Positions 7,147 through 51,545 of a stretch of DNA of 64,000 nt are shown here, piece after piece. The stretch lies in NCBI RefSeq assembly GCF_024204645.1, contig NZ_CP100351.1, positions 1,116,001 through 1,180,000 on the forward strand. Reading direction: 5' to 3'. How positions within the stretch are numbered: the stretch's first letter is position 1; the number at the start of each line of letters is the position of its first letter. The notes beneath the pieces are model-generated. The model made no database searches. It saw only the letters and a program-made list of their open reading frames with translations, and had not been told where the DNA came from. This DNA is from Desulfomicrobium sp. ZS1 (GTDB taxonomy: Bacteria; Desulfobacterota; Desulfovibrionia; Desulfovibrionales; Desulfomicrobiaceae). The translations under genes and the position numbers were made by a program.

Positions 7147-7224
7147 GGTCGCTCCTGGTAATGGCGTGTCTGCTTGTCGCGCTGGTTCGAATAAACGTCT
7201 GGTTCGTACGGATTGTCATGAAGC

Positions 7225-8776: not shown

Positions 8777-8788
8777 TTTTTCTCTCCT

Positions 8789-9448: not shown

Positions 9449-10068
9449 ACACCTTTCTTGTCGTTGAAAGTCAGAATATGCAGGCGGGGAGAAAAGTTGA
9501 AGCCGTGGCGAACGCACAGTTCCCAGACAGGGGGCATGCGCCCTATCTGCTCCTGTCTGACGGCGCCAAGAGGCATGAGCCAGACCTTGGCCGGATCGAT
9601 TCCGTGGGCGCTGACTGCGGCGAGCACTGGGGTGATGTCCTCTTCAATCACAAACTTGAAGGCGTTCACTCTCGCAACAGCATCCGGATCAAGCACCGGC
9701 GCGTGGAGTGGTTTCGGCGAGCAGACCACAAAGCCGCCATGGCCCGCAGGGATGCCCGCCTTGCCGCTGGTTTCGTACTGCACTCTACGGCTGGAAGCGC
9801 CCAACGCGTGGGCCAAGCGGTCAAGTCCCGTGTTCCATTGCAGAAAAGGCTCCCCGCCGGTGATGACCACCAGAGCCTGCGGGTGTCGGGCAATTTCGTC
9901 TTCGACTTCCTTTACGCTCATGCGGCGGCCGCTGCCGAGGGCTTGCGGGGTGTCGCACCAGTCGCAGAAGGGCGGCACGCAGCCGGCGAGGCGGACAAAG
10001 ACCGCAGGCCTGCCGGCAAAAGGTCCTTCGCCTTGCAGCGAGGCGAATATTTCGGTCACTTCAAGCAT
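9445..10068 (-). CDS. queE: 7-carboxy-7-deazaguanine synthase QueE (radical SAM)
   Basis: About 207 residues. QueE rearranges 6-carboxytetrahydropterin to 7-carboxy-7-deazaguanine with a 4Fe-4S cluster and S-adenosylmethionine. The signature LQGEGPFAGRPAVFVRLAGC is followed by CVPPFCDWCDT, in which the spacing before CDWC is the short cluster motif variant seen in some QueE proteins. TGGEPFLQ is the SAM-binding GGEP motif. The start MLEVTEIFASLQGEG at 10068 overlaps the queD end by 8 nt; longer upstream reading would run through queD. Confidence 0.94.
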   Translation of the reverse strand: MLEVTEIFASLQGEGPFAGRPAVFVRLAGCVPPFCDWCDTPQALGSGRRMSVKEVEDEIARHPQALVVITGGEPFLQWNTGLDRLAHALGASSRRVQYETSGKAGIPAGHGGFVVCSPKPLHAPVLDPDAVARVNAFKFVIEEDITPVLAAVSAHGIDPAKVWLMPLGAVRQEQIGRMPPVWELCVRHGFNFSPRLHILTFNDKKGV

Positions 10069-10477
10069 GTTCGCCCCCGGATCGGGACCGGGTCGCCCAG
10101 GCTGCCGGGGTTTCGAACACCGTGACTTGCTGGAGCCTGAAACGGTCGGAAACCAGGGCACGGTCAAGGGTCGTGAAGATGTGCTCGGCCATATTCTCGG
10201 CCGTGGCCGGAAGATCGTGATATTCACGAAGATCGTTTAGGTCGGCATGATCGTAGCGGCTCAGGACCTCGCGCTGGACAATGTTTTTAAGTTCTCCGAA
10301 GTGCAGGATCATGCCCGTTTCATCGGGCCGTCCGGCGAGACAGACCTGTAAACGGTAGGTATGACCGTGAAGGCGGGCGCAGTCGCCGTAGATGCTTAGG
10401 TTTTCCGCGTCGGAGCGGTCGCGAAGATGCAGCCGGTGAGCCGCATGGAAGGAGAATTCTTTGGTGATAGTGAGCAT
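10061..10477 (-). CDS. queD: 6-carboxytetrahydropterin synthase QueD
   Basis: About 138 residues of the 6-pyruvoyltetrahydropterin synthase fold. QueD makes 6-carboxytetrahydropterin from dihydroneopterin triphosphate. The zinc ligands are FHAAHRL and CARLHGHTYRLQV; the downstream YDHADLND and PATAENMAEHIF strings are typical of the active site. I start it at 10477 (MLTITKEFSF), with ACAGGTGGC upstream. First gene of the que operon. I looked for a preQ1 riboswitch in the 10478-10736 divergent region and did not find the class I pattern. Confidence 0.95.
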   Translation of the reverse strand: MLTITKEFSFHAAHRLHLRDRSDAENLSIYGDCARLHGHTYRLQVCLAGRPDETGMILHFGELKNIVQREVLSRYDHADLNDLREYHDLPATAENMAEHIFTTLDRALVSDRFRLQQVTVFETPAAWATRSRSGGEHA

Positions 10478-10736
10478 AAGCCACCTGTGAGCCCGACAGT
10501 TTTGTGCCGGGGGTGAGGGAGAATTTCTAAAGCGGGTTGCCACTTGTCCGCTGCCTTAAAAAAAGGGCTGGTGAATGAAAACGGCTTGCGAGTCAAGTCG
10601 CGCGAAGGTCGGATCGAAGCTGTCCGTCTCGTTCACAGCCTCGGCTGGTTGCGCGAAAGTTAAAAAAAACATAGATAATAGCTGTGTCGGATTTCAGATA
10701 GATACGCTCAATTTCGCTTTAGCAAACGGATAAATT

Positions 10737-11153
10737 ATGGGAAATTCAGGAAGTTATACGTTTCTTGTTCTTTTTTTCGGGATATTCTTCTTTGCTTCAG
10801 GCATTGCTTCCGCAGGCGAGCATTTGCTGCATCCGCTGGAAGCGCAAAAACTGATTGAAGCGAACAAGGATAATCCAAAATTCCTCATTATTGATTTACG
10901 GTCGAAAAATGAATTTGATGATGGTCATATCGAAGGCGCAAAGCTGGTTCATTATTATGATACGAAATTTAAAAGAATTATCTCTCAATTGGATAGAGAT
11001 TCAAAAATTTTTCTTTATTGTCAAAAGGGCAGGCAAAGTCCGCTTGCTTTGAGGGCCATGGAGAAGCTGAGATTTTTAGATATGTATATTTTGGAAGGCG
11101 GATTTGACGAATGGGTCAATGCGGGGCTACCGACAGTGTATACTTCTTTTTGA
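10737..11153 (+). CDS. Exported rhodanese-like protein
   Basis: A 138-residue protein with a signal peptide of about 26 residues (hydrophobic core FLVLFFGIFFFASG, likely cleaved after ASA) and one rhodanese domain. The domain shows FLIIDLRSKNEFDDGHIEGA and a catalytic loop IFLYCQKGRQSPLA with the active cysteine near residue 100. It should act in the periplasm as a sulfurtransferase or sulfane-sulfur carrier; the partner is unknown. The gene is AT-rich compared with its neighbours, which may mean recent arrival. It has its own terminator. Confidence 0.88.
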   Translation: MGNSGSYTFLVLFFGIFFFASGIASAGEHLLHPLEAQKLIEANKDNPKFLIIDLRSKNEFDDGHIEGAKLVHYYDTKFKRIISQLDRDSKIFLYCQKGRQSPLALRAMEKLRFLDMYILEGGFDEWVNAGLPTVYTSF

Positions 11154-11200
11154 ATTGTGCATTTAACTATTTGAAAACATATATAAAAGTTTTGTTGTGT

Positions 11201-11243
11201 AAAAAATATCATCCCCTTGAATGAGGAGATGATATTTTTTTTT
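11201..11243 (+). terminator. Intrinsic terminator of the rhodanese gene
   Basis: AAAAAATATCATC at 11201-11213 pairs with GATGATATTTTTTTTT at 11228-11243, so the stem ends in a run of nine Ts. It is a standard rho-independent terminator 48 nt past the stop codon. Confidence 0.92.
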
Positions 11244-11266
11244 GCGGAAATCCTATTGCGGTCAGC

Positions 11267-11441
11267 GGTCCGTTGTCGCCATGGCCTTGAGGCCCGCCGG
11301 AACTCCTTCACCGGCCTCGTAGAGTTGAATCGTTGCGTGCAATGCGGAATACCCGGAACGGACATGGAGCAACGATTCAACAAACGATGCCTGGCTCAGT
11401 CAGACAGCCGACGAACCTCAAGACCATGACGACAACGGACC
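11267..11441 (-). repeat. Structured repeat family 1, copy A
   Basis: The outer stem arms are 11267-11292 and 11416-11441 (26 bp). The inner stem arms are 11324-11336 (GTTGAATCGTTGC) and 11369-11381 (13 bp, perfect), around a 32-nt apical loop. The unpaired segments carry the family consensus AACTCCTTCACCGGCCTCGT and CAAACGATGCCTGGCTCAGT. Two outer-stem positions are C-A on the plus strand and G-U on the minus strand, so I place the element on the minus strand. It could be a structured RNA or a small mobile palindromic element. Confidence 0.88.
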
Positions 11442-11506
11442 TTGAGGCGCTGAGCACGTTGTTTGGAAAACCTGAAAGCAAAACCTGAAACAGTATTTCG
11501 TTCAGC

Positions 11507-11681
11507 GGCCCGTTGTCGCCATGGCCTTGAGGCCCGCTGGAACTCCTTCGCCGGCCTCGTAGAGTTGAATCGTTGCGTGCAATGCGGAATACCCGGAACG
11601 GACATGGAGCAACGATTCAACAAACGATGCCTGGCTCAGTCAGACAGCCGACGAACCTCAAGACCATGACGACAACGGACC
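11507..11681 (-). repeat. Structured repeat family 1, copy B (tandem duplicate of A)
   Basis: Nearly identical to copy A and displaced by exactly 240 bp. The outer arms are 11507-11532 and 11656-11681. Flanking sequence after the element (CTTGAGGCGCTGAGC, then GTTTGGAAAACC) is duplicated too, so this is a segmental tandem duplication rather than two insertions. Three outer-stem positions are C-A on plus and G-U on minus. Confidence 0.88.
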
Positions 11682-21488: not shown

Positions 21489-22223
21489 CTAGGCCTTGCT
21501 TCTGGAAGTCGAGCCGAAGAGCTTGGCGAACATGGCCTTGCGGTCCATGAGCCCAGGCGTGGTGGCCGCGGCCACCGCAAAATCGTGAAACTTTTGCGGT
21601 GCCATCTGGTAGAGGTAGATGACCCTGGTCGAATCGGCGTCGCCCAACACCGCGTCAGGGAATTTCTTCTGCACCTCGGCCAGGCGTTTTTCAGCCAGGG
21701 CCAACATCTCGTCCCGATCTCCGAAGTTCATTGTTCCGGTCGGGCAGGCCTGCACGCAGGCAGGCTTGAGGCCATTCTGGACGCGGTCAAGGCACATGGT
21801 GCACTTGGTGATGACCTTGGTGGCCGGATCCTGACGCGGAATGTTGTAGGGGCAGGCTTCGCGGATTTCATCGAAATCAGGCAAATCCTTGGTTCTTTCA
21901 GTGAAGGTGACGGCACCGGTGACTTCGTCCTGCAGGATGGCCTGGTCGTCGTAGGCATCGGCGGTCATTTTGCAGGGGGGTTCGGTGCAATGCCGGCACT
22001 GTTCAGGAAAGAAGAGCCAGGCGGCCATGAAGCCCTGGTCGTCGGCAACTTCTTTCATGTGCACGGTTTTATAGGTGATGGCCGAAACATCCATGGGGTT
22101 CTGATGCGACCCATGGTTTTTGGTCTGCTCGGCCGGGAGCTTGTTCCACTGTTTGCATGCGATCTGACAACCGCGACAGGCCGTACATTTGGTCAGATCG
22201 ATGAAGAATGATTTTCCTGACAT
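21489..22223 (-). CDS. fdhB: Formate dehydrogenase iron-sulfur (beta) subunit
   Basis: A 244-residue ferredoxin-type subunit that passes electrons from the Mo/W site to periplasmic cytochromes. Four cysteine groups for four 4Fe-4S clusters are visible: CTACRGCQIACKQW, CRHCTEPPC, CPYNIPR with CTMC, and CVQACPTG. No signal peptide or membrane helix is present, so it is probably carried across the membrane with FdhA by the Tat system. It is shorter than membrane-anchored FdnH, fitting the soluble two-subunit FdhAB of Desulfovibrio types. No cytochrome or membrane gamma gene follows. Confidence 0.95.
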   Translation of the reverse strand: MSGKSFFIDLTKCTACRGCQIACKQWNKLPAEQTKNHGSHQNPMDVSAITYKTVHMKEVADDQGFMAAWLFFPEQCRHCTEPPCKMTADAYDDQAILQDEVTGAVTFTERTKDLPDFDEIREACPYNIPRQDPATKVITKCTMCLDRVQNGLKPACVQACPTGTMNFGDRDEMLALAEKRLAEVQKKFPDAVLGDADSTRVIYLYQMAPQKFHDFAVAAATTPGLMDRKAMFAKLFGSTSRSKA

Positions 22224-22232: not shown

Positions 22233-25200
22233 TTACGCTTTCTTCACGTTGACCATGAAGGCCTTGCTTTCCGGAATGCCGGTGTTGGGATCGCCGACCG
22301 CCGGGGTGAGCAGGTTGGCCGCATCCCCGCCATCTTTGGGCCAGACCCATCCATAGTGCCATGGAATGCCGATCACATGAACCGGATTCCCCATGACATC
22401 GAAGGGTTTGAAGCGCTTGGTGACAATGGCGATGGCCCAGAGCTGCCCTCGCTGGTTCTCCAGAATGACCTTTTCGCCGTTCTTGATGCCTTTGAGTTCC
22501 GCCAGTTCTTCGCTCATTTCGCAAAACATCTGCGGCTGGGCTTCCGTCAGCCAGGGCAGCCAGCGGGTCAGTACGCCCGTCTGCCAGTGCTCGCTGACAC
22601 GGTAGGTCGTGCAGACGAACGGGAAGCGCGGGTCGCAAGTGCTGCGCTTGTGAGCGTCCTCGGCAAACATCATGGCCGTGGGGCTGTTGAGCTGCTTGGA
22701 GAAGGGATGCTCGGTGACCGGACATTCCAGGGGTTCGTAGTATTCGGGCAGCGGACCGTCGTTGAGGCCCGGGCCATAGATCTGTCCCACACCATGCTTC
22801 TGCATGATGAAGGGATGCTTGGCGCCTGCGTCTCCGCCGCCATCGACCACGTCGATGAGCCACTTTTTGTTTGCGGCGTCCCATGCCAGGACAGGCTTCT
22901 GCGGTGCCCAGGGTTTGCCGGCCATGTCGACGGAAGCTCTGTTGTAGATGATGCGGCGGTTGACCGGCCAGGACCAGGTCCATCCGGGGAAGAGACCGAT
23001 TTTGGCCTGTTCCGGAGTCTGGGTCTTGTCGCGGCGTTCGGACATGTTGCCCTTGTCGGTGTAGGAGGCGGTGTAGATCCAGTTGCCGGAGCAAGTCGAG
23101 CCGTCGGCCTGCAGCAGCACGAAGCTCGGGACCTGGCTGCCCGCTTTGTACACGGTTTCCTTGCCGTCAGCGCCCTTGATGGTCGTGTCTTTCAGGAAAT
23201 AGCCGTTGATGAGCCTAGCGACCTTGTGCGGATCGAAAACGTGTCCATCGCCCCAGTCGTCGACGTTGAGGTTGAGGATCGGATCGGGGAACGCGCCTTT
23301 TTCCTTCTTGTACAGTTCGCGGATTTTGAGCGCCAGTTCATAGATGATGTCGCCGTCGGGCTTGGACTCGCCCATGGGCTTGGGACCGGCGTAGCGCCAC
23401 TGCATCCAGCGGCCGGAGTTGGAGATGGAGCCTTGCTTTTCCACCGAGACGGCGCAGGGCAGGAAGAAGACTTCGGTCTTGATCTTCTTGGGATCAACGC
23501 CCGGGCCCTTCCAGAAGGAGCCGGTCTCGTTCTCGAACATGTTGACGTTGACCATCCAGTCCAGCTTGGACAGGGCTTCGCGGGTTTTGTTGGAGTCCGC
23601 GCCGCTGGCGGCAGGGTTCATGCCCCAGGCGAAGAAACCCTTGAATTGGTCTTTGAGCATCTTGTCGAAGAGCACCAGCCAGGAAGCGTTCTGTCCGACA
23701 TCGAGCTTGGGCATCCAGTTGTAGGCGGTGGACAGGTCGGCTTCCTTGTAGAAGGACTTGAGCAGGCTGGCCATGTACTTGGGTTTGTGCTGCCACCAGT
23801 TGACGCTCTTGGGGTCCTTGCTGGCCGGGGTGTTGGCCTTGTTGTAGTCTTCCAGGGTTGCCCAGTTGGCGCGCGGGGTGGCCATGTAGCCGGGAATGAT
23901 GTGGAAGAGCAGGGCCTGGTCGGTGGAACCCTGGACGTTGGATTCGCCGCGCAGCGCATTCACGCCGCCGCCGGCCACGCCCATGTTGCCCAGCAGCAGC
24001 TGGATGATGCTCATGGCGCGGATGTTCTGCACGCCGACGGTGTGCTGGGTCCAGCCCATGGCATACAGGATGGTACCGGATTTGTCCGCTTTACCCGTGG
24101 CTGTGTACGCCTTGTAGAAGGCCAGCAGTTTGTCTTCGGGAGAACCGGAGATGGAGGAAACTTTCTTGGAGTCGTAACGCTCGTAGTGTTTTTTTAGGAT
24201 CTGGTACACGCAGCGGGGATCCTTCAAGGTCATGTCCCGCTTGGGTACGCCGTTCTCGTCCATCTCGAAGTTCCAGGACTTTTTGTCGTAGGCGCGCTTG
24301 CCTTCGTCAAAGCCCGAGAACAGACCGTCCTTGAAGCTGAAATCCTTGGAAACGAGAAAAGAGGCGTTGGTGTAATGGAGGACATATTCCTTCTGGATCA
24401 GGTCGTTGTCCAGAATGTATTTGATCATGCCGCCCAGGACGCCGATATCGGAGCCTGAACGCAGGGGTACATACATGTCCGCTTTGGAGGAGGTGCGGGT
24501 GTAGCGCGGGTCGACGTGAATGACCGTCGCGCCTGCTTCCTGCGCCCTGGTGACCCATTTCCAACAGATGGGGTGGTTTTCGGCAGCGTTGCTGCCCATT
24601 ATTAAAATGCAATCACTGTTCTTGAAGTCGATCCAGTGGTTGGTCATCGCGCCGCGTCCGAACGACTCTGCCAGAGCCGCAACAGTTGCGCTGTGTCAAA
24701 TACGGGCCTGATGCTCTATGTATGTTAGCCCCAGACTGCGCAGGAAGGCCTGGTAGATCCAGCATTCCTCGTTGTCCATGGCCGCCGAGCCGATAGAGGC
24801 TAGGCCTTCGGTGCGGTTGACGACTTCGCCCTTGGCGTTCTTTTCGGTAAAGGATTCGTCACGGACTTTTTTGACGCGCTTGGCGATCTCCGTGATGGCC
24901 CAATCCCAGCTCTTTTCTTCCCACTTGTCGCTGCCGGGTGCACGGTACTGCACCTTGGTGATGCGCTGGGGATTTTCGGTCAGCTGGTAAATGGCCGAGC
25001 CTTTGGCGCACAGAGCGCCTTCGTTGATGGGATGATCCGGATCGCCTTCAATGTTGATGGCGCGTCCTGTTTTTTCGTCGGTGGTGACGATGAGTCCGCA
25101 GCCTACCGAACAATAGCAGCAAACCGAGGTGGTTTCCTTGCCTTTGCGCAAGCTCAAAAGCTGAGCATGGGCCTTGGTCGGCGCCAGGTCAAACCCGAGG

Positions 25201-25268
25201 CCCCCGAAGGCCGTGACCGCTGTCGCAGCGGCCGTGAGTTTGACGAATTCTCTTCTTCCCAGTTTCAT
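22233..25268 (-). CDS. fdhA: Formate dehydrogenase catalytic subunit, selenocysteine-containing, Tat-exported
   Basis: About 1011 residues if the in-frame TGA at 24698-24696 is read as selenocysteine (codon 191). Around it the protein reads HQARI-Sec-HSATVAALAESFGRGAM, the active-site context of FdnG-type enzymes. The N-terminus is a Tat signal (GRREFVKLTAAA, cut near AHA). Then comes a 4Fe-4S motif CCYCSVGCGLIV with a fourth Cys in NEGALC, then molybdopterin-binding domains (MGSNAAENHPICWKW, MGWTQHTVGVQ) and a C-terminal guanylate-binding domain. It oxidises formate or reduces CO2 with Mo or W bis-MGD. CAGGAGGAACTGC precedes the ATG. Gene callers will split it at the TGA. Confidence 0.96.
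24655..24698 (-). promoter_or_regulatory. UGA recoding site with probable bacterial SECIS hairpin
   Basis: On the minus strand the TGA is followed by CACAGCGCAACTGTTGCGG and then CTCTGGCAG. This aligns with the fdhF/fdnG recoding element (TGA, then CACGGCCC...GGTTGCAGG). CAGCGCAAC...GTTGCGGCTCTGG gives a stem-loop with the GU-containing apical segment that SelB needs, about 15-20 nt after the UGA. selA, selB, selC and selD are not in the window. Confidence 0.75.
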
Positions 25269-25594: not shown

Positions 25595-26455
25595 TTAATC
25601 CTCAAAGTCCGGCACCATGGCGCAGAGATATTCGGCCAGGATGGAAAAAATATCATCGTTCTTGTGATTGTAGCGGAATTCCAATTCCTTGATGTAAAGC
25701 GGAAAGTTTCTGGGAGAGATGCCTTTCAAACGTCTGAACCAGTCCTTGGAGAAGGACCAGAATCCCTTGGAGGAATCTATGAACAGTCCCTTGTCGGCGT
25801 GGCGGATGTTGTAGATTGCAGATAGATGACTGCCACCGACCAGCAGCGCTGCATACTGTTTGAAGCGGTCTGTATATATGATCTTGCCCAGACTGGCGGT
25901 TTTTAGATGAAAGTTCATCTTGAAATGGATGATGCTGTCCCCGTCAAGTTCGGGAATGAGGTCGGCGAATACGTGGGGGCCTCGTTCCACGATGCCGAAT
26001 ACGGGCATGCGCGAGCCGTTTTTGCTGCTCATGTCCAGGTGGAATTTGCCGGATTTCGAGAAATCAAGTCCCTCGATGGAGCGGATGATCAGGCGTGCAT
26101 CCAGTGAGTGGGCCAGGATGGCCATGCGCAAGGTGGTCGCCGCCTTGTAGGCGGTGTTGTAGGTGATGCCGAGCTGTTCCGCCATGCGGCCCGTGGGCAC
26201 TTCCAGTTCGAAGAGTTTGATGAGGCGCAGCCATTGCTGGGCGGAAAGATTGCCGTTGTTTATGAAGCGCTGGCTGAAGTCGTGAAATGTGTACGAACAC
26301 CGGGAGCAACGCCGCTTGCCGTCTCGCAGGGAATAGAGTTTGCGGCTGCGGCATTTGGGGCAAAATCGTTGATGGTTTTTCCAGCAAAATTGCAACAAAA
26401 ATTTTTTTGCTGAATTTTCATTTTTTACAATATTTTCAAAAAGTTGAAAATTCAT
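25595..26455 (-). CDS. IS1595/ISXO2-like transposase relative, catalytic Glu apparently lost
   Basis: A 286-residue protein with the domain order of IS1595-family transposases. A zinc ribbon (FCPKCRSRKLYS...CSRCSYTF) comes first, then a helix-turn-helix (PTGRMAEQLGITYNTAYKA), then an RNase-H-like core (GLDFSKSGKFHLDMSS, YTDRFKQYAALL). In active members the last catalytic Glu lies in a (H)xNxxExFWS motif. Here the aligned string is IDSSKGFWSFSK, with Lys at the Glu position. I found no terminal inverted repeats or target duplications. It may be a dead insertion sequence or a domesticated DNA-binding protein sitting upstream of fdhA. Confidence 0.8.
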   Translation of the reverse strand: MNFQLFENIVKNENSAKKFLLQFCWKNHQRFCPKCRSRKLYSLRDGKRRCSRCSYTFHDFSQRFINNGNLSAQQWLRLIKLFELEVPTGRMAEQLGITYNTAYKAATTLRMAILAHSLDARLIIRSIEGLDFSKSGKFHLDMSSKNGSRMPVFGIVERGPHVFADLIPELDGDSIIHFKMNFHLKTASLGKIIYTDRFKQYAALLVGGSHLSAIYNIRHADKGLFIDSSKGFWSFSKDWFRRLKGISPRNFPLYIKELEFRYNHKNDDIFSILAEYLCAMVPDFED

Positions 26456-26715: not shown

Positions 26716-27942
26716 GTGCGCGGAGGATTGCGGATTCTTCTTTTAGCGTTGTGCGCGATGTGGCTGGCGTCCTGCCAGGATGCGGAGGTCCAGATTCCTC
26801 TCGCCCCGGTAGATCTCGGCGTGACCGATACCGAAGTCATCTTCGGGTCTTCTCTGGCTTTGCAGGGGCACGCCGGATATCTGGGGCAGGAAACGCTGCG
26901 CGGAGCAATGAGTTATTTGCAGCATGTCAACGAACAAGGCGGAGTGCATGGACGGACAATACGTGTCATCACCCGCGATGATTCCTACGATCCGCCGAAA
27001 TGTCTGGACAACACCCAGCGTTTTCTCATCGAGGATCAGGTCTTTGGGCTTTTCTGCTACGTGGGTACCCCGACCACGGTTAAAATCTTGCCTTTGGTGG
27101 AAGAGGCGCAGGTTCCGCTGCTGGGCATGTTCACCGGGGCCAATGCGCTGCGCGAACCCTTCATGCCTTACCTTATTAATGTGCGCGCTTCGTACTATCA
27201 GGAAACCAACGCCGCGGTGGAGCATCTGGTGCAGGATCTCAAACTGACCCGCATCGCGGTCTTCTACCAATACGACGCCTTTGGCTTCGACGGTCTGACC
27301 GGTACGGAACTGGCGCTCAAACGGTTTGGACTGGAGCCCGTGGCCAGAGGAAGCTATGTACGCGGCACGCATGACATCAGCGAGGGTCTGCAGCGTATCC
27401 GTGAATCCGGGGCCGAGGCCGTGGTCATGATCGGCACGTCGGACCCATGCGCGAACTTCATCCGCAAATCTCTTGAAAATGATTACGCCCCTATTTTCTA
27501 CATGGTCTCCTTTGTGGGCGCCAAGGAGTTGTCGCGCAACCTCTTGCAGTCCGAAACGAGACGTGTGGACGTGATCATGTCCCAGGTAGTGCCCCCACCC
27601 TTGAGTCGCGACGGCACTGTGGCTGAAAGCGCCAAGGAATTCGCCCAGTTGCTGGAGAAGTATTATCCTGGAGAGGAGCCAAACTTCGTTGGGTTCGAGG
27701 GGTATATCAACGCCAAGGTTCTCGTGGAGGGACTCCGGCGGGCCGGACGGGATTTGAGCCGCAAATCCTTTTTGGAGGCCATCACCTCCATGACGGATTT
27801 TTCTCTGGGCGGTGATGTCGGGCTGACTTTCGGTCCTTTGGACCATCAGGGCATGGACAAGGTCTACTTCACCCGCCTGCGTGAAGGTCGGTTCATACTC
27901 CTTGATGATTGGGCGCAGCTTGTCAGGGAGGGACACAGATGA
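26716..27942 (+). CDS. LivK-like periplasmic binding lipoprotein, sensory type
   Basis: A 408-residue type I periplasmic binding protein. It starts with GTG after CCAAGGAGGCTGAT. The signal peptide LLLALCAMWLASC ends in a lipobox, so the protein is probably lipid-anchored in the periplasm. TEVIFGSSLALQGHAGYLGQ and GVHGRTIRVITRDDSYDPPK are typical of branched-chain amino acid or amide receptors. No permease or ATPase genes follow. Instead its stop overlaps the start of a histidine kinase (ATGA), so it most likely presents a ligand to that kinase rather than to a transporter. The ligand is unknown. Confidence 0.88.
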   Translation: MRGGLRILLLALCAMWLASCQDAEVQIPLAPVDLGVTDTEVIFGSSLALQGHAGYLGQETLRGAMSYLQHVNEQGGVHGRTIRVITRDDSYDPPKCLDNTQRFLIEDQVFGLFCYVGTPTTVKILPLVEEAQVPLLGMFTGANALREPFMPYLINVRASYYQETNAAVEHLVQDLKLTRIAVFYQYDAFGFDGLTGTELALKRFGLEPVARGSYVRGTHDISEGLQRIRESGAEAVVMIGTSDPCANFIRKSLENDYAPIFYMVSFVGAKELSRNLLQSETRRVDVIMSQVVPPPLSRDGTVAESAKEFAQLLEKYYPGEEPNFVGFEGYINAKVLVEGLRRAGRDLSRKSFLEAITSMTDFSLGGDVGLTFGPLDHQGMDKVYFTRLREGRFILLDDWAQLVREGHR

Positions 27943-29993
27943 AGCCGTACGCACGCATCTCACTCAAAAACAAGATATTCGCCTCCATTCTGGCCGTCAT
28001 CCTCATCATCAGCGTGACCATTGCGCTCCTGGCCCGCTGGATTCTCATCTCCGGACTGACCAAGGAACTGGAGTTGCGCGGCGTGGCCGTGGCCCACTCC
28101 ATCGCCGAACGCGGCGGCGGGTTCGTGCTCGACAAGAACTATTCGGAACTTTTGAGCCTGCTCTTCGAGGAAGCGCGTTTGCGGGAACGCCAGCACATGA
28201 TCAACTACATCTTTGTGCTCGACCGCAGCGAACAGGTTCTTTCCCACACCTTCACGGTGCCTTTTCCCGGCCCCTTAAGTACCGCCAATCCGGTGCTCGA
28301 GGGGAACATGCACAGCGTGCGTCTGGTCGGGGTGGGCGATCAGACCTCCTACGACATCGCGGTCTCCATGAATGAGGGCCTGTACCACATCGGCACGGTG
28401 CATGTGGGCCTGAGCAAGGAGCATATCGACAAGCTCGTGTCCAAGCTCAGATTCATGTTCCTGGGTTTCATATCGGCGGTCATCATTATCATCTTTTATG
28501 TCAGTCATCGCATTTCGCGCTACATAACCAGCCCGATTTCACGCCTGACGAACATTTCAGATGAACTCAGCCGGGGAAATTTCGATGTGCATCTGGATCT
28601 TGGCGAGGACCTGGACTGGGCGGTGACCAACTGCCCGGCCTACAAGGACACCAACATGCCCTGCTGGCATTTTGATGAACAGGGGCGTAAATCCCTCAAA
28701 TCAAAAGGCAAGACCGGCCAGGTCTGTTCGACCTGTCTCTTTTATCGCAAGCGGGAGGGTGACGAGGTCATCCAGCTCGCCGACTCGTTCATGAGCATGG
28801 TCTGGTCCATCCGTCTCTACCGCAAGCGTCTGCAGGAATCGGAGATGAAGTACCGCTCCCTCTTTGACTCCGGCCCCGACCCCATTTTTGTCGTGGACTG
28901 CAACACGGACCGGATACTCGACGCCAATCCCAGGGCCGAGGAGTTGTACGAGTATTCCAAGGGCGAACTGCTGGGTGTGTCTTTCATGGTGTTGGGACAC
29001 GACCAGTTCCGGGAATGCCTGAACTCTCTCAATGAGGCGCAGACGAACAGCGGCTGCGTCTATTATCCGAAGGTGCTGCACTACAAAAAGGGCGAGCGGC
29101 CGTTTTACGTCAACATGCACGCCTGTCCCATCAGTTACGGGGGCACCCACGCCATGATCGTGGCCGTGACCGACATCACCGAGATGATGGAGAAGGATGC
29201 GCAGCTCGTGCAGGCGGCCAAGATGAAGACCCTGGGCGAGATGAGCGCGGGCATCGCCCACGAGATCAATCAGCCCCTGAACGCCATCAAGATGGGCAGC
29301 GAGTATCTGAATCTGCTCATCGAGCAGAACCGGCAGGTGACCGAAACCCAGATCCGGGACATGGCCACGGAAATCAGCCAGCAGGTGGACCGGGCCACGG
29401 ACATTATCAACAACCTGCGCGCCTTCGGCAAGAAGTCCGGACTGGTCATGGAGCGGGTGGACATGAACGAGCCCATCCGCGGGGTGCTGTCCATCATCGG
29501 CCGCCAGTTTTCCATTCAGCGCATCACCATCCGCTTGGAGCTGGCCGAGGGTTTGCCGTACATCAAAGGACACAATAACCGGCTCCAGCAGGTTTTTTTC
29601 AACCTGCTCAACAACGCCCGTGACGCCATCCAGGAAAAGATGGAAAATGAGCCCGGCATGTGGGGTGACATCCTGGTGCGCACCTATGCACAGGACGGCC
29701 GCGTTTTTGCGTCCTTTGCAGATAATGGCCCTGGCATAGCCGATTCGGTCCGCAACAAGATCTTCGAGCCTTTTTTCACCACCAAGCAGACCGGCAAAGG
29801 CATGGGGCTCGGCCTCGCCATAACATATGGCATTGTTCGGGATTATGGCGGAATCATTACTATTGACAGCCAGCCGGGTCAGGGGACAACGTTTATCTTA
29901 AGTTTCCCGAGCGTCGAAAGCCATCAGGCGCTTGAGCATAACGCAAGCCGAGTGGACGAGAACCCGGCACAACCAAGCGAGATATCCCAATGA
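27939..29993 (+). CDS. Membrane sensor histidine kinase with HAMP, four-Cys segment and PAS
   Basis: A 684-residue kinase. TM1 is at residues ~13-35, a periplasmic sensor at ~36-165 and TM2 at ~168-190. HAMP follows ([19 protein letters not shown]). A cysteine segment at ~231-266 has [15 protein letters not shown] and CSTCLFY. PAS is at ~300-410 and HisKA has [16 protein letters not shown] (His near 445). HATPase has [16 protein letters not shown] and [10 protein letters not shown]. The CPAY...CW...CxxC pattern recurs in deltaproteobacterial HAMP proteins and may bind metal or sense redox state. Overlaps the binding-protein gene and the regulator gene by 4 nt each. Confidence 0.92.
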
Positions 29994-30703
29994 CGCAAGA
30001 AAAAATCCTGGTCATCGATGATGAGAAGGCAACGCTCAAAATGTTTCGGCTTTTTCTGGATGTGTACGGATTTGACATTTTCACGGCAGAATCCGGGGAA
30101 GAGGGGCTGGACGTTTTCGACAGGGAAAAACCCGATATCGTCCTGACCGACATCAAGATGCCCGGCATGGATGGGATTGAGGTCCTGCAACAGATCAAGA
30201 AGCGTTCGCCCGCCACGGAGGTCATCGTCATCACCGGGCATGGCGACATGGATCTGGCCATTCAGGCCCTCAATCTGGACGCTGCCGATTTTATCAACAA
30301 GCCCATCCAGCGCCAGAGCCTTGAACAGGGTCTGTCCCGGGCCAGGGAGCGGCTCAAGCTGGCCAAGAGCCGTCAGAACGAGGTCAGCGTCAGCCGGCAG
30401 GGCCGGGCGCTGGTCATTGAAATCCAGGGCAGCGTCAGTTCCCATAGCGAACCGTATCTGCGCGAAGCCTACGCCAAGGCCCAGGAGGCCAAGGTTCAGC
30501 GCATCGTGCTGCATTTCGATCCCAACACCTCAGTAAACGGGGCCGGTATCGCCATTTTGACCCAGCTTGTGCTGGAGAGCGAAAAGGACGGTATCGAGAT
30601 TGTCATGGCCGGTCTTTCCGAAAATTTCCGCAAGGTTTTCGGCATAGTGGGCTTGACGCGCATGATTCAGATTTTTGATAGTCTGGATCAAGCCTGCGCC
30701 TAG
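29990..30703 (+). CDS. Response regulator with REC and STAS-like output domain
   Basis: A 237-residue regulator. The receiver (residues 1-120) is complete: VIDDEKAT, LTDIKMPGMDG with the phospho-Asp near residue 54, VITGHG and the Lys of INKPIQ. The output (about 135-237) looks like a STAS domain (LVIEIQGSVSS, RIVLHFDPNTSVNGAGIAIL) and not a DNA-binding domain. The phosphorylatable Ser of classical STAS (DSSG) is replaced by NGAG, so control should come from the receiver only. It probably acts by protein contact. Coupled to the kinase by ATGA. Confidence 0.85.
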   Translation: MTQEKILVIDDEKATLKMFRLFLDVYGFDIFTAESGEEGLDVFDREKPDIVLTDIKMPGMDGIEVLQQIKKRSPATEVIVITGHGDMDLAIQALNLDAADFINKPIQRQSLEQGLSRARERLKLAKSRQNEVSVSRQGRALVIEIQGSVSSHSEPYLREAYAKAQEAKVQRIVLHFDPNTSVNGAGIAILTQLVLESEKDGIEIVMAGLSENFRKVFGIVGLTRMIQIFDSLDQACA

Positions 30704-30736
30704 GCATTTTTTTCGGCCTAGGGCCAAGGAGTTTTC

Positions 30737-31279
30737 ATGATAGGTTTTATCCGAATCGCATTTTGTCTTTTTCTTTTCTTTACGGCCCAGCCCGTTCTGG
30801 CCGCGCCGCCCGCCACGGGCGACACCATACCCGAACTGATTTTACCCGTCCCCTTCGATCCGGCCGGGCAGGAGATGCTTGGTCTACAGGGGAAATCGAC
30901 CTTTACCCTTGCGGATCTTGACGCCGAACTCATTTTTATCGAGATCATCGGCGTGTATTGTCCGCAATGCGTGAAGCAGTCGCCGGGTTTCAAGACGCTT
31001 TTCAACAGGCTCGGCAAGGGCAAGCTCAAAGGGCGGGTAGCCATGTTCGGCTTGGCCGCCGGCGGGACGGACGCCGAGGTCAAGCAGTTGCTGACTACGG
31101 GGCAGTACCTGTTTCCTGTCTTGAGCGATCCCGACTACGTGGCCCACAAAGTGCTGGGCGAACCGCTTACGCCCTACACCATCGTCTGCCGGCCGGACGG
31201 AACAGTGGTTTACGACCACCTAGGAGTGGTTCAGGACATTGACGCGCTGTATCAACTGATCAAGACACTGCTCGACTGA
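30737..31279 (+). CDS. Exported TlpA/MauD-like thioredoxin-fold protein
   Basis: A 180-residue redoxin with a signal peptide (IRIAFCLFLFFTAQPVLAA). The active site is IGVYCPQCVKQSPGF, a Cys-Pro-Gln-Cys motif at about residues 74-77, followed by the cis-Pro region TPYTIVCRPDG. It likely handles thiols or disulfides in the periplasm. Together with the MauE/DoxX protein two genes on, it resembles the MauD/MauE pair of methylamine dehydrogenase maturation, but this is inference. It lies 33 nt after the regulator gene. Confidence 0.85.
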   Translation: MIGFIRIAFCLFLFFTAQPVLAAPPATGDTIPELILPVPFDPAGQEMLGLQGKSTFTLADLDAELIFIEIIGVYCPQCVKQSPGFKTLFNRLGKGKLKGRVAMFGLAAGGTDAEVKQLLTTGQYLFPVLSDPDYVAHKVLGEPLTPYTIVCRPDGTVVYDHLGVVQDIDALYQLIKTLLD

Positions 31280-31293
31280 CCGCGGAGCGGGAG

Positions 31294-32907
31294 ATGACGG
31301 CTCAAATCGATAGCGATGCCGATCGCGCCAGATACCAGTTTCAGATTTTGTTCGAAACGGCTTCGGAGCTGAGCGGGGCGCGTTATCCGCACAAGATCCT
31401 GGAGGCCTTTTTGCTCTCGGCCCAGGGAGGGGTGGGGGCCAGGGGCGGTTTTGCGGCTATTCTGGGGCAGAGCGAATTTCAGCTCATGACCCGCTCCAGC
31501 CTCTCCAAAAGCCTTACTCCGGAGTATGCGAAGGTGCTGCGCGAGCATCTGGACGCCCTGGGCGAGGAGCGGAAAACCTCTTTTTTTGTGCCTTCGCTGC
31601 AGGGCGAACTCTGCCCCGGAAAATGCGAACTGCTCCTGGTCTGTCCTCTCGATGACGGCCAGGATGGCGTGCTCGGTCTGGAAGAGAGCCTCGCCGGGCG
31701 TCCCTACGACGAGAATGACAAACAGCTCGTCGCGGGTCTGGGCACGCTTTTTCAGCTCAGCCTCAGGTTTTCGCTCTATGCCACTCGTGTCGAACTGCTC
31801 AACGCCGAATTGACCAAGCAAAATGATACCCTTGATCGCCAGATTTATCATCTGAGCGCCCTGCGCGACCTTTCCGGAGAAATCTTGCGCGTGGACATGG
31901 CCGAGGTCATGTCCACGTTTCTGCTGACCCTGCTCGGGCACTTCGCCCGTCCCCAGGGGCTTCTTCTGTTGCATGATCGCGCATCGGGGCAAATCCATGA
32001 AATTTCCAGCGGCCTGAAAGCAAAGCCCGGCCTTGGCGAGCGGGACGTGGAGAGGCTTTTTTTTCTGTGTCTGGCCGGAGTCCGCGAGAAGCATCTGCAG
32101 CCTCTGCAGGTCGAGCCTGTCGAAGACATGGGCGGGCTGGCGGAGGTTGCGCTGGGTTTTGCGCCTGACCGGGGCTATCTTTTCATGCTGCGCGAGAATC
32201 TGTACGGAGTGCTGCTGTTGGGGCAGAGTCTGGGCACGACGGTTTCCGCCGAGGATGGTCTTCTGCAGGCTTTTGTTTCCCAGGGGGTCCTGCACCTCAA
32301 GAATGCCGACTCTTTCAGGACCATCATGTCGCTGAACGATGACCTGGCCAGGCAAAACGAAGAGCTGCGCCGCACCATCAACGAGTTGACGCAGGCCAAG
32401 GATCACATCAGCATGCTTGAGGCCGCGGGCAGACGAATCGCCGGCATCGTGCACAGCAAGGCCGAGAGTCTGACCCGTGTGCGTCTGGTCGATTTCTTCC
32501 TTATCATCGTGTTAAGCCTCGGCCTGGCGCTCGCGTTCAACCAGCAGAATCCGCGCGGGATTGTCCTCATCGAGCCACCCGGCCCCGAAATTCCATTCGT
32601 CACTCTGGACGAGGCTCTGGAGCTCATCGCAAAAGAGGATGCGCTTCTTGTCGATGCCCGCCCGCGTGAGTTCTATGAGCGCGAACATGCGCAAAAAGCC
32701 GTCAACGTTCCGGCGCAGCTTTTTGATCTGGTCTACATGATGCAGATGACCGCCGAGGACCCTGAACGGCCCATCGTGGTCTTCGGACGCAGCGTGAGCC
32801 GCCGCTACGATCGGATCGTGGCCACGAAATTTCTGGGCAGGGACCATGAGCGGGTCTATATCATTAAAGATGTCCCGCCCTTGGCCCTGGACGGAGGCGC
32901 GCAATGA
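31294..32907 (+). CDS. GAF-GAF-coiled coil-TM-rhodanese protein
   Basis: A 537-residue protein of unusual design. Two GAF-like domains span about residues 15-160 and 195-345 (LLLVCPLDDGQDGVLGLEE, LYGVLLLGQSLGTTVS). A coiled coil follows at about 345-390 (LNDDLARQNEELRRTINEL). One membrane helix lies at ~398-416 (FFLIIVLSLGLALAF), then a rhodanese-like domain at ~430-530 (LLVDARPREFYEREHAQKAVNVP). The catalytic loop reads IVVFGRSVSRRYD, with no cysteine where CxxGxRS would be, so the domain probably binds rather than transfers sulfur. If the N-terminus is cytosolic, the rhodanese lies in the periplasm. Coupled to the next gene by a 4-nt overlap. Confidence 0.75.
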   Translation: MTAQIDSDADRARYQFQILFETASELSGARYPHKILEAFLLSAQGGVGARGGFAAILGQSEFQLMTRSSLSKSLTPEYAKVLREHLDALGEERKTSFFVPSLQGELCPGKCELLLVCPLDDGQDGVLGLEESLAGRPYDENDKQLVAGLGTLFQLSLRFSLYATRVELLNAELTKQNDTLDRQIYHLSALRDLSGEILRVDMAEVMSTFLLTLLGHFARPQGLLLLHDRASGQIHEISSGLKAKPGLGERDVERLFFLCLAGVREKHLQPLQVEPVEDMGGLAEVALGFAPDRGYLFMLRENLYGVLLLGQSLGTTVSAEDGLLQAFVSQGVLHLKNADSFRTIMSLNDDLARQNEELRRTINELTQAKDHISMLEAAGRRIAGIVHSKAESLTRVRLVDFFLIIVLSLGLALAFNQQNPRGIVLIEPPGPEIPFVTLDEALELIAKEDALLVDARPREFYEREHAQKAVNVPAQLFDLVYMMQMTAEDPERPIVVFGRSVSRRYDRIVATKFLGRDHERVYIIKDVPPLALDGGAQ

Positions 32908-33383
32908 TTTCACGCTTGAAGGTTCTTCTGACCCACCCTGTCCTTGCCCTGCTCCTGCGCCTCTATCTGGCCGGGGTTTTCATCTATGCCAGCCTGCACA
33001 AAATCAATTTTCCGGCCGAATTCGCGGACAACATCGCCGGTTATCTCATTGTTCCGTATTGGCTCATTAATCCTTTGGCCGTGTTCATGCCCTGGCTGGA
33101 GCTTGTTTGCGGGCTCTTTCTTCTGGCCGGTGTGAGGGTGCGGGGGGCGAGTCTGCTCATCGGCGCAATGCTGGCCATGTTCACCGTGGCGGTACTGGTG
33201 GCTCTGATTCAGGATACGCCCATCGGTTGCGGTTGTTTCCAGAGCGTGGGCGAGCCCATCTCCTGGTGGACGGTGCTGAGAGATCTGGCCTGGCTGGCCA
33301 TGGCCGCGCATATTTATTTTTATGACCGACTGGTTCATTTGGACCGGCTCTTCATGGTCAAACCGGAGGAACTTGGGCTGTGA
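32904..33383 (+). CDS. MauE/DoxX-type redox-associated membrane protein
   Basis: A 159-residue protein with four predicted transmembrane helices. LRLYLAGVFIYASLHKINFP is the typical first helix of the DoxX/MauE family, and the GCGCF motif near residue 110 (TPIGCGCFQSVGEP) provides vicinal cysteines that may exchange disulfides. MauE works with MauD in methylamine dehydrogenase maturation; DoxX relatives are linked to sulfur chemistry. It overlaps both neighbours by 4 nt. The context suggests electron or disulfide flow to the TlpA-like protein. Confidence 0.82.
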   Translation: MISRLKVLLTHPVLALLLRLYLAGVFIYASLHKINFPAEFADNIAGYLIVPYWLINPLAVFMPWLELVCGLFLLAGVRVRGASLLIGAMLAMFTVAVLVALIQDTPIGCGCFQSVGEPISWWTVLRDLAWLAMAAHIYFYDRLVHLDRLFMVKPEELGL

Positions 33384-33694
33384 TGAAAATACTGCCTTTT
33401 CTGATGCTGCTGCTTTGCCTGTCCTGCTCCTCCCGGCCTGATCTTGCCGGGCGCTACGAGGCCTCGCATACAGGACCCAGCGGGCCGGTGAACGCGGTCA
33501 TGACTCTTGCCGAGGATGGCAGCGGAAAATGGGAGATCGAGGGCGAGGTGCTGCCTTTTTCCTGGTTCGTGCGCGCCGGAGCAATCAACGTGCACACCCG
33601 TGACGGCGCGGTGGTCGAAGGCGTGCTTGAAGGCGACACTATGCGTCTGGACGTGCCGGGGGTTGGAAAGCTTGATTTCGTGCGCGGGAAATAG
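33380..33694 (+). CDS. Small lipoprotein
   Basis: A 104-residue protein with a signal peptide ending in a lipobox (LLLCLSC), followed by a short beta-rich domain (GRYEASHTGPSGPV, MTLAEDGSGKWEIEG). It should be anchored in the inner or outer membrane facing the periplasm. I do not recognise a family. Last gene of the seven-gene cluster and coupled to the MauE/DoxX gene. Confidence 0.75.
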   Translation: MMKILPFLMLLLCLSCSSRPDLAGRYEASHTGPSGPVNAVMTLAEDGSGKWEIEGEVLPFSWFVRAGAINVHTRDGAVVEGVLEGDTMRLDVPGVGKLDFVRGK

Positions 33695-34839: not shown

Positions 34840-35724
34840 CTAAAATCCCCAGGCCGAGAGGGTCGGGCGTTTGTATTTCTTTTCCCGCGCCGCCACGTCA
34901 AGGCTGAGGGATTCCAAGTCATCCACCAGGGGCAGTGTTCTGCGATCCAGATTTCTAAAATCCGTGAGCTTGATGTACATATTGCAGGTTTTGCAGGCGT
35001 TGATGCGCACTCCGGGCTCTTCATCGGATTCATAATATTCGAGCTTGGTCATGTCCTTTTCCAGACAGAAGGGGCACTGCAGCCGGGGCGCGTGATATTC
35101 CGCGTGGCAGAATCCGCAGATATTGTATCTGAATCCTTCCTTTTCACGCAAATCCGACATGATCGGCAGGCTCCCGCACAGGGGGCAGTGTCCATGTTCC
35201 CAGGACTTCGAAAGATCGGTCCGGGCCTCTAGTGCGATGGCGGCTCGTTCCAGGGACGGGGTCATGGCCGCCTGCACGAGCATGGGCAGGATGCGCGGCG
35301 CGGAAGGAGTGGCGGCGGTCCAGGTAGAGAAAAAACCTTCGTCGCCATTCAGATGCGCCTGCATGGCCAGGTCCAGATCCAGGGATTTGTCCGCGATGGC
35401 TGCGGTTATTGCCGTCGCGGCTTCGCCGAGGGCCGGGTTGACCGATTTTGCCAGCTCCAGAAATTCGTTGAAAAGTTCAAGGCTCTGAACTTTATCAAAG
35501 GGAAAATTGGCTCTTTCGAGCAGAGGCGCGCCCTGGCTGTGCTGGAGCGGATCGACGATTTTCTGTGTCGCGGCGGCGGGAACCTGGGCCATGTCCCGGG
35601 CTTCAAGCTGGCGAGTGTAGATTTTTTCAACTAGTCCGATCAGTTCTACGGGCAAAAAGCCGCGTTTTCTGCACGAATCGATTTTCTTGGCAAGCAATTC
35701 CTGGGCTTTTACAGCTTCGATCAT
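34840..35724 (-). CDS. fdhE: Formate dehydrogenase accessory protein FdhE
   Basis: A 294-residue cytoplasmic protein needed to mature formate dehydrogenases. Its C-terminal half carries four CxxC pairs (CPLCG, CGFC, CPFC, CKTC) forming two rubredoxin-like metal sites, and the N-terminal half is helical. I start it at 35724 (MIEAVK) because GGAGAATGCCC spaces well to that ATG; the ATG two codons earlier is too close to the ribosome site. Its presence beside mobA and moeA fits service to the FdhAB enzyme encoded at 21-25 kb. Confidence 0.92.
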   Translation of the reverse strand: MIEAVKAQELLAKKIDSCRKRGFLPVELIGLVEKIYTRQLEARDMAQVPAAATQKIVDPLQHSQGAPLLERANFPFDKVQSLELFNEFLELAKSVNPALGEAATAITAAIADKSLDLDLAMQAHLNGDEGFFSTWTAATPSAPRILPMLVQAAMTPSLERAAIALEARTDLSKSWEHGHCPLCGSLPIMSDLREKEGFRYNICGFCHAEYHAPRLQCPFCLEKDMTKLEYYESDEEPGVRINACKTCNMYIKLTDFRNLDRRTLPLVDDLESLSLDVAAREKKYKRPTLSAWGF

Positions 35725-35886
35725 GGGCATTCTCCATTGGTGAAGAGCGAGGTGTGAATCCGGGCCGGAACCGTTCCTAACGTGTCTTTTGACACATCAC
35801 AATGCTTGTTTTGTATCTGGCTTTGATTTAGCAAAATATGTGTTTGAATTTTAATCACATCATCCTCATCATAGGAGGAGGAATCC

Positions 35887-50349: not shown

Positions 50350-50405
50350 TTATCGTTCAACAGCCCTTTTCTTTGTTTTTTTCTTCAAAATTTCCGGAGG
50401 TTTCC

Positions 50406-51545
50406 ATGAACGCGGCAAAATGTGTCGTTGCTCTTGTCGCCTATCTGCTGACTTGCGTGCCGGCTTTTGCGGCCGATGCCATCAAGATCGGCGCCATTCT
50501 TTCCGTGACCGGCCCGGCGTCCTTCCTGGGCGAACCCGAGAAAAACACGCTGATCATGCTTCAGGATCAGCTTAATGCCGCCGGCGGAGTAGGTGGGCAG
50601 CAGGTTGAGGTCATTGTTTACGACGATGAATCCGACGTGAACAAATGCGTCATGGCAGCCAAGAAGCTCCTTGATCAGGACCAGGTCGCCGTGGTCATCG
50701 GACCCAGCATTTCCGGCAACACCCTGGCCATCTCCAAGTTCTTTTCCTCCGCCGAGGTGCCGCTTGTTTCCTGCGCCGCCGCCGAGAAGATCGTGCGTCC
50801 CGTAGATCCCTGGGTGTTCAATACGCCGCAGCTGGATCGCCATGCCGTGACCAAGATTCTTTTGGACGCGAGGGCCAAGGGGTATTCACGGCTCGCCATC
50901 CTAACCGTGTCCGACGGCTACGGTCAGGCCGGACGCGGCGTGCTGAAGGAGCTCATCCCTGCTGGGGGGTTCGAGCTTGCCGCCGATGAGGTCTATGGAC
51001 CCAAGGATACGGACATGACCGCGCAGTTGACCAAGATCAAGGGCGCCGGCGCGGACGCCATCATTTGCTGGGGCACAAATCCCGGCCCGGCGGTGGTCGC
51101 TCGCAACCGGGTGCAGCTCGGGCTGGACATACCGCTGTACATGAGCCACGGGGTGGCTTCGAACAAGTTCATCGAGCTTGCCGGAGATGCCGCCGAAGGG
51201 CTGGTTCTGCCCGCCGGCCGGCTGGTGGCCGTGGACCAGGTGCCGGCCGATCATCCCCAGAAGGCGGTGCTGGAAGCGTATGTTGCGGGTTACACCAAAA
51301 CCTACGGCACCCAGATTTCCTCTTTCGGCGGCTATGCCCACGATGCCTTCGCTCTGGTCATGGAAGCCATCGCCAAGGGTGGTTCCGCAAAATCCGCCGA
51401 TATCCGCGACAATCTGGAAAAGATTTCAGGCTTTGCGGGCACCTCGGGCGTTTACACCTATTCGCCCGAGAATCATAACGGCCTCGACGAGTCCGCTTTC
51501 ATCATGGTCACCATCGAAAATGGCGGCTGGAAGGTCGCGAACTAA
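50406..51545 (+). CDS. livJ: Branched-chain/aromatic amino-acid ABC transporter substrate-binding protein
   Basis: About 379 residues. A signal peptide (CVVALVAYLLTCVPAFAA) is followed by a type I periplasmic binding fold (IKIGAILSVTGPASFLGEPEKN, VEVIVYDDESDVNKC). No lipobox Cys is present at the cut site, so it is soluble in the periplasm. I start it at 50406 because GGAGGTTTCC precedes that ATG. It feeds the LivHMGF complex. A hairpin after the gene probably keeps its expression above that of the membrane genes. The paaK gene at the far end hints that aromatic acids or amino acids are the cargo. Confidence 0.92.
   Translation: MNAAKCVVALVAYLLTCVPAFAADAIKIGAILSVTGPASFLGEPEKNTLIMLQDQLNAAGGVGGQQVEVIVYDDESDVNKCVMAAKKLLDQDQVAVVIGPSISGNTLAISKFFSSAEVPLVSCAAAEKIVRPVDPWVFNTPQLDRHAVTKILLDARAKGYSRLAILTVSDGYGQAGRGVLKELIPAGGFELAADEVYGPKDTDMTAQLTKIKGAGADAIICWGTNPGPAVVARNRVQLGLDIPLYMSHGVASNKFIELAGDAAEGLVLPAGRLVAVDQVPADHPQKAVLEAYVAGYTKTYGTQISSFGGYAHDAFALVMEAIAKGGSAKSADIRDNLEKISGFAGTSGVYTYSPENHNGLDESAFIMVTIENGGWKVAN

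Follow-up and report, generated by a model that had tools for sequence, protein, structure and literature searches.

What is the function of seven tightly packed genes that lie close to the genes of a formate dehydrogenase in Desulfomicrobium sp. ZS1, and do they constitute one system or more than one? The genes, designated here P1 to P7, occupy positions 26716-33694 of the window, i.e., the whole stretch of 64,000 nucleotides that was analysed (contig NZ_CP100351.1, positions 1,116,001 to 1,180,000), which is part of a single-contig genome of 3.87 Mb. Broadly, P1, P2 and P3 encode a binding lipoprotein, a membrane kinase and a response regulator, and P4 to P7 encode a thioredoxin-like protein, a membrane-anchored protein with a rhodanese fold, a MauE-family protein and a small lipoprotein (Table 1). 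A first-pass annotation, made from the sequence alone, had described them as a cluster with ATGA overlaps at several joints; the seven open reading frames (ORFs), all on the + strand, were confirmed, and four joints do overlap, by 4 bases (ATGA) each at P1/P2, P2/P3 and P5/P6 and by 4 bases at P6/P7 if GTG 33380 is the start of P7. The start of P2 was corrected to ATG 27939, and gaps of 33 and 14 bases separate P3 from P4 and P4 from P5, respectively. The strongest clue to function is the neighbourhood of fdhAB, the genes for a periplasmic formate dehydrogenase, which lie in the same window on the P1 side; the interval 26716-33694 holds the seven genes, as first proposed, but stops short of fdhAB and of an IS1595-derived gene between fdhAB and P1. 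We propose, tentatively and with our own opinion close to evenly divided, that this is an FdhA-linked control locus in which a sensor-gated thiol relay would set a disulfide switch in FdhAB; the linkage is a matter of observation, and FdhAB is the presumed client.

The seven genes are a real, conserved cluster. In a sample of 247 genomes of the order Desulfovibrionales, a search with P5 has matches in 73, some of them through a short rhodanese only, and 50 genomes have the MauE type that is particular to the cluster (E <= 1e-45). Among 50 loci, consisting of 49 fetched P5 neighbourhoods and the window, 38 carry all seven genes in order on one strand and 45 carry the core P3-P7 in order, a figure that becomes 47 if a stray, distant kinase match in L046 and L077 is not counted. 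Gene order kept to this extent means that the arrangement is not due to chance, and the orthologues are linked, as the first-pass annotation had anticipated, rather than scattered. The P5/P6 overlap is exactly 4 bases in 41/48 loci, P6/P7 in 25/47 and P1/P2 in 19/40. Named contigs with a relative of P5 come from two Desulfomicrobium sp., at 72-73% identity, and from one Proteobacteria bacterium, at 86%. The complete set of seven genes also occurs in other families of the phylum, on four contigs (L161-L164), with a P7 match inside a long ORF overlapping P6 in L162 and a contig end that cuts P1 in L164.

Which neighbours does this cluster keep? When the window's ORFs at 5-60 kb were sought near the cluster in 36 loci of other taxonomic families, fdhA recurred in 22, fdhB and the IS1595-like gene in 19 each, fdhE in 10 and mobA in 5; a moeA-like gene at 37556, trpB (all one genus) and the ORFs at 5590-6012 and 53449-54222 recurred in 5 loci each. 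Two broad families, a hybrid kinase (24 loci) and a LivK-type protein (29 loci), were set aside together with antisense shadows. FdhA and/or FdhB is encoded within ~10 kb in 35 of the 50 loci, of which 8 represent the window and its genus, and two (L040, L066) have FdhB only. Five arrangements of fdhAB relative to the cluster are seen: upstream, fdhAB is either divergent or, in L038 and L043, co-directional; downstream, it is either convergent or, in L048, co-directional; and the fifth is an order in which P3-P7, fdhA, fdhB, P1, P2 and a second P3 all point in one direction (L051, L078). The receiver-STAS (REC-STAS) regulator P3 can be followed beyond the P5 loci, its STAS part having 142 matches in 132 of the 247 genomes. 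Thirty of these are outside the FdhA matches listed, and among the 112 with an FdhA listed, 82 have a close FdhA no more than 12 kb away (40/54 in P5 genomes and 42/58 in others, across 17 genera), 1 has it at 12-20 kb, 9 at >20 kb and 20 on another contig. About 1 such pairing within 12 kb would be expected by chance, given ~1.2 listed FdhA copies per ~3.8-Mb genome and bearing in mind that related genomes are not independent. The set P1-P2-P3 is thus linked to periplasmic FdhAB.

The cluster is made up of two modules, P1-P2-P3 and P4-P7, so that the earlier view of it as one unit holds for its conservation but not for its separability. Five loci (L034, L044, L050, L074, L076) carry P3-P7 without adjoining P1-P2, in L046 and L077 there is just a distant kinase match for P1-P2 beside P3-P7, and in L051 and L078 P1-P2 stand on the far side of fdhAB from P3-P7. 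Conversely, among 20 genomes selected for absence of P5 (L113-L132), nine (L115, L116, L118, L119, L123-L127) have P1-P2-P3 by fdhAB without P5-P7. In genome G092 the locus is split: P1-P2-P3-P5 are together (L079), ~200 kb from P4-P6-P7, which stand without P5 and divergent from an IS1595-like gene, fdhA and fdhB (L203, G092:C2:1465000-1484900, 5143-11604). One hairpin was found at the P3/P4 boundary, and it folds no better than shuffled sequences (z -0.8); terminator-like sites number 8 against 8.5 expected from shuffles, and no terminator is claimed.

P4-like thioredoxins are also found near fdhA where P5 is lacking. A P4 search of the 20 P5-less genomes gave 19 places in 16 genomes, five of them near fdhA (G126, G170, G202, G205, G206) and two beside a REC-STAS gene (G093, G109). 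With the thioredoxin of locus L123 as query, 78 matches were obtained in 65 of the 247 genomes, and at least 23 of them, from 7 genera, have a listed fdhA no more than 12 kb away; in P5-less genomes the figure is at least 15 of 51, with <1 expected by chance. Ten additional thioredoxins that were read out all have the CxxC motif. These extra genes lie upstream of the IS1595-like gene and fdhA in L036, L065, L069, L071, L073, L123 and L117 (in the last with fdhA 5.9 kb on), directly downstream of fdhB in L125 and L128, and 1.4 kb downstream in L126. In L036, L065, L069, L071 and L073 the extra gene is a second P4-like thioredoxin (CPPC) besides the cluster's own P4.

The ligand-input, two-component part of the first-pass annotation is upheld. 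P1 matches Peripla_BP_6 (1.6e-53), and its orthologues retain the lipobox Cys20 in 38/40 and Cys96 and Cys245 in 39/40. Its best solved relative is 4kv7 (1.1e-53), annotated as a probable leucine/isoleucine/valine-binding protein, a match that does not fix the ligand of P1; from context, formate or another small carboxylate would be our guess. Another LivK-type periplasmic binding protein is encoded elsewhere in the window, at 50373-51545 (+) (Peripla_BP_6 4e-51). P2 has the Pfam domains sCache_3_2, PAS, HisKA and HATPase_c, and between its HAMP and PAS domains, at residues 232-266, there is a conserved four-cysteine segment, CPAY...PCWH...C..C, whose cysteines are kept in 40-41 of 43 orthologues and which may possibly act as a metal, Fe-S or thiol sensor. 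P3 combines Response_reg (1.3e-32) with STAS (2.9e-15), so that a kinase with HisKA and HATPase is paired with a receiver bearing the conserved Asp (TDIKMP conserved). The STAS domain matches the structures of TM1442 (2e-5) and SpoIIAA (6e-4), both weakly; the phosphorylated Ser of SpoIIAA lies in a DSSG motif, and the P3 orthologues read S.NGAG. P3 probably docks a partner protein, and we infer P5 as the first candidate because P3 stays with P4-P7 when P1-P2 are gone. In TorT/TorS, a binding-protein-dependent sensor kinase system, a periplasmic binding protein gene likewise adjoins a membrane kinase gene, but here the binding protein is a LivK-type lipoprotein and the regulator is a REC-STAS protein without a DNA-binding domain.

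The second module looks like the MauD/MauE-type thiol part that had been foreseen. P4 falls just below the curated cut-offs of both Redoxin (25.2 vs 26.6 bits) and AhpC-TSA, a relative of it (L167) exceeds the cut-off of a thioredoxin-type model, and its CxxC is present in 49/49 orthologues. P6 matches MauE (PF07291) at 4.9e-27 (95.2 bits vs a cut-off of 27), and the CxC that marks this family (Cys109 and Cys111) is kept in 48/48. P7 has no match in Pfam or NCBIfam, and its lipobox Cys is kept in 47/47 orthologues. MauD/MauE, the thiol pair of methylamine dehydrogenase maturation, similarly consists of a MauE-family protein clustered with a thioredoxin-like protein, but lacks what accompanies the pair here, i.e., a sensor joined by a transmembrane (TM) helix to a Cys-less rhodanese, a lipoprotein, a two-component system and formate dehydrogenase linkage. 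P4 resembles the ResA/TlpA thioredoxins in its weak match to ResA structures (6e-5), its signal sequence as read by eye and its CxxC, and differs from them in its link to formate dehydrogenase.

P5 is the component that sets this module apart. Its assignment as a GAF-GAF protein is supported indirectly: no GAF model of Pfam matches P5 itself, but its N-terminal halves are a tandem repeat (hhalign E 2e-38), GAF_3 is matched in 5 of 38 orthologues, and the P5 profile has a weak match to the DevS GAF (E 0.003). Pfam further gives Rhodanese at 6.7e-8 and a sub-threshold SlyX match. The catalytic loop Cys that defines a rhodanese sulfurtransferase is found in none of the 48 orthologues with a visible loop (it is unseen in L064 and L081), and the loop reads instead like VYGR..SR.YD. 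A separate TM-rhodanese/MauE pair of the Desulfovibrionales (L133-L140), one copy of which is in the host genome (L133, G000:C1:2498031-2499232), also has a rhodanese behind an N-terminal TM helix with MauE directly downstream, but it has no GAF or cyclic nucleotide (cNMP)-binding domain in front and retains the loop Cys in 8/8 examined (YCDG in 6, YCSS in 2). Because this paralogous pair keeps the Cys that P5 lacks, P5/P6 looks like a derived, regulatory version of it. When K + R are counted on either side of the most hydrophobic stretch, P5 is N-in in 45/46, and the rhodanese would therefore be periplasmic, alongside P4. Beyond the order, relatives of P5 from other families of the phylum have the same TM helix and Cys-less rhodanese but carry a cNMP-binding domain instead of the GAF pair (three proteins were tested, with E 5e-24, 1e-25 and 7e-26), and in L176, L177 and L179 cNMP-binding domain, TM helix, Cys-less rhodanese and MauE form one chain (480, 479 and 502 amino acids; Pfam was run on the L176 protein), with a P7 gene adjoining. 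This swap of input domain and fusion of output suggest that P5 is a regulator acting on MauE, and P5 would accordingly be expected to gate P6. A 415-residue protein at L178:9048 appears, as read by eye, to fuse a P5-type GAF-like domain to a nucleotide-cyclase-like domain, which hints at a cyclic-nucleotide link to the cNMP version of P5.

Could FdhAB be the client of such a relay? Much work has been devoted to the FdhAB of Desulfovibrio, which reduces CO2. In the D. vulgaris enzyme, of which 6sdr is a structure (PMC11134731), an allosteric disulfide, C845-C872, keeps the protein protected and of low activity, and reduction of this bond, for which dithiothreitol has been used in vitro, activates it; these points and the residue numbers, including Met405, are as given in passages of PMC11134731, PMC11323313 and, for the disulfide, PMC13397495. 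The same passages of these three papers name no cellular partner or reductant for the switch. C849 and C878 of the window's FdhA align with C845 and C872 of PDB chain 9qm0_A, which has the same molecule name as 6sdr and a near-equal score, and FdhA here shares with the D. vulgaris protein a selenocysteine (Sec191), an equivalent of Met405 and both switch cysteines. Where the residues are visible, every single-copy FdhA of a P5 locus (27/27) has the cysteine pair. The other FdhA copies, which are of the Cys type, have it in 10/20, and in 8/13 of those from P5-module genomes; the pair follows the Sec type no less than it follows the module. The host genome has a second FdhA (L181, G000:C1:2224416-2227448), 80% identical, with Cys for Sec and the switch Cys pair. 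By identity to the PDB chain (83% across 299 residues), the closest FdhA belongs to the genus of L123. The set in this genus is simpler and consists of a P4-like thioredoxin, the IS1595-derived gene and fdhAB, with P1-P2-P3 divergent.

In the mechanism that we propose, the two modules would cooperate. A small periplasmic ligand bound by the lipoprotein P1 would give the input to the Cache kinase P2, which would phosphorylate P3, and P3, because it is without a DNA-binding domain, would act by protein contact. The membrane protein P6, with its CGC motif, would hand thiol redox equivalents to the periplasmic thioredoxin P4, in the presumed direction of flow, and P5 would gate this relay: its cytoplasmic GAF-like domains may sense P3 or a small molecule, and its single TM helix may pass the signal to a Cys-less rhodanese fold sitting on MauE in the periplasm, with P7 as a putative accessory lipoprotein. 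The most likely client would be FdhAB, the periplasmic enzyme encoded next to the cluster, which is active only with its allosteric disulfide reduced and is protected from O2 when that disulfide has formed. The full transmembrane version of this scheme, in which a signal sensed by a cytoplasmic GAF pair or cNMP domain is passed by a single TM helix and a dead rhodanese to MauE, and so determines whether a periplasmic thioredoxin is oxidised or reduced and, in the Desulfovibrionales, sets the on/off disulfide of FdhAB, we regard as rather doubtful. Several observations weigh against FdhAB as the client. No FdhAB is found in the flank of 15 of the 50 P5 loci, and contig ends explain at most 5 of these (L059, L068, L077, L081 and L082, on short or broken contigs, as distinct from L034, L035, L044, L046, L049, L050, L053, L074, L076 and L079). 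Outside the order, no FdhA lies near any of 20 P5 relatives, including the seven-gene L161-L164, several of the flanks being short. For 55 of the 78 thioredoxin matches, none of the FdhA copies listed is close by. Genomes G080, G085 and G087 have a second REC-STAS gene by fdhA and P3-P7 elsewhere, with a P4-like gene between that REC-STAS gene and fdhA in G085, and in L052 the nearer FdhA is without the cysteine pair that the farther copy has. FdhA is encoded in 207 of the 247 genomes and the module in 50, and the pair is present in 18 of 20 P5-less FdhA loci (L115 and L116 lack it), so a switchable FdhAB does not depend on having the module, and the presence of the pair is no guide to that of the module; a rule that presence of the module equals presence of the pair was rejected on the same count.

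One rival, which we consider possible although somewhat unlikely, is that P4-P7 form a general periplasmic thiol relay, which might serve, e.g., in the maturation of metalloenzymes or in redox control of the envelope, and that only P1-P2-P3 are tied to FdhAB, the two being brought together by a shared growth condition. It draws support from the relatives with cNMP input and the four full seven-gene sets of other families, all without FdhA in the fetched flank, and from seven loci (L034, L044, L046, L050, L074, L076, L077) with P3-P7 that lack both P1-P2 and flanking FdhAB, three of their genomes being those with another REC-STAS gene by fdhA. It is opposed by G092, in which P4-P6-P7 remain beside fdhAB, by the fdhA linkage of P4-like thioredoxins even in P5-less genomes, and by the direct position of P3-P7 ahead of fdhAB in L051 and L078. 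A general sensor-gated relay that has been recruited to the FdhAB locus in the Desulfovibrionales is a reading that fits the evidence for and against, and it is for this reason that confidence in the control of the FdhAB switch is not set higher. A thiol module for assembly of FdhAB, which would keep the cysteines of FdhA or FdhB reduced for formation of cofactor or iron-sulfur sites, is improbable: it would be in keeping with the linkage to FdhAB and, at some loci, also to FdhE and MobA, but most FdhA-bearing genomes of the sample are without the P5 module, and FdhAB-type enzymes are assembled in the cytoplasm and then exported by the twin-arginine (Tat) pathway. We see very little prospect for a module that senses and detoxifies sulfur or polysulfide, sulfur being, next to thiol, the chemistry named in the first-pass annotation. 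A rhodanese fold, thiol proteins and a host that we take to be a relative of sulfate reducers speak for it, but the absence of the loop Cys in 48/48, on which a sulfur-transfer role of P5 was rejected, and the separate existence of a Cys-bearing TM-rhodanese/MauE pair in the same genome argue against it.

Table 1. Coordinates of the P1-P7 genes and their neighbours in the window
Feature	Position	Strand	Basis
P1, LivK-like (Peripla_BP_6) lipoprotein	26716..27942	+	Pfam, lipobox Cys20
P2, membrane histidine kinase, sCache-HAMP-four-Cys segment-PAS-HisKA-HATPase	27939..29993	+	Pfam; HAMP below curated cut-off
P3, REC-STAS response regulator	29990..30703	+	Pfam
P4, thioredoxin-like (TlpA/ResA type), CPQC, N-terminal signal read by eye	30737..31279	+	
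P5, two GAF-like domains, one TM helix (~residues 396-414), rhodanese fold without catalytic Cys	31294..32907	+	
P6, MauE/DoxX membrane protein, CGC motif	32904..33383	+	MauE Pfam model
P7, small lipoprotein, no Pfam or NCBIfam match	33380..33694	+	lipobox Cys
FdhB, iron-sulfur subunit	21489..22223	-	
FdhA, formate dehydrogenase catalytic subunit, in-frame TGA (Sec) codon 191	22233..25268	-	
IS1595-transposase-derived protein, 330 bases upstream of fdhA	25595..26455	-	synteny kept
FdhE, formate dehydrogenase accessory protein	34840..35730	-	

The relative of IS1595-type transposases that separates fdhA from P1 in the window is found in 41/70 loci, in 36 of these 41 on the same strand and 108-532 bases upstream of fdhA, and in 143 of the 247 genomes with 1-3 copies. 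IS1595-type transposases have a DDE motif, the third acidic residue of which was not seen in this protein, and its Zn-ribbon cysteines are conserved; it looks like a domesticated regulator of fdhAB. In two places (G081:C34:106037-107247 and G148:C7:136748-137964) the gene adjoins a REC-STAS gene with no listed fdhA on the contig.

Among the titles listed from the open-licence PMC literature none describes such a system, although other papers may, and the cluster genes are not mentioned in the passages considered from PMC4215793, PMC10102598 and PMC3431258. The key additions made here are the tie to FdhAB and the recognition of P5 as a Cys-less protein whose input domain is swapped between families. 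The locus provides candidate genes, i.e., a periplasmic thioredoxin, a MauE protein and a sensor, for the cellular control of the FdhAB switch, and the simpler set in the L123 genus makes the question testable by gene deletion. If true, the design in which a sensor is joined through a TM helix to a Cys-less rhodanese and MauE would amount to cytoplasmic control of envelope thiol chemistry.

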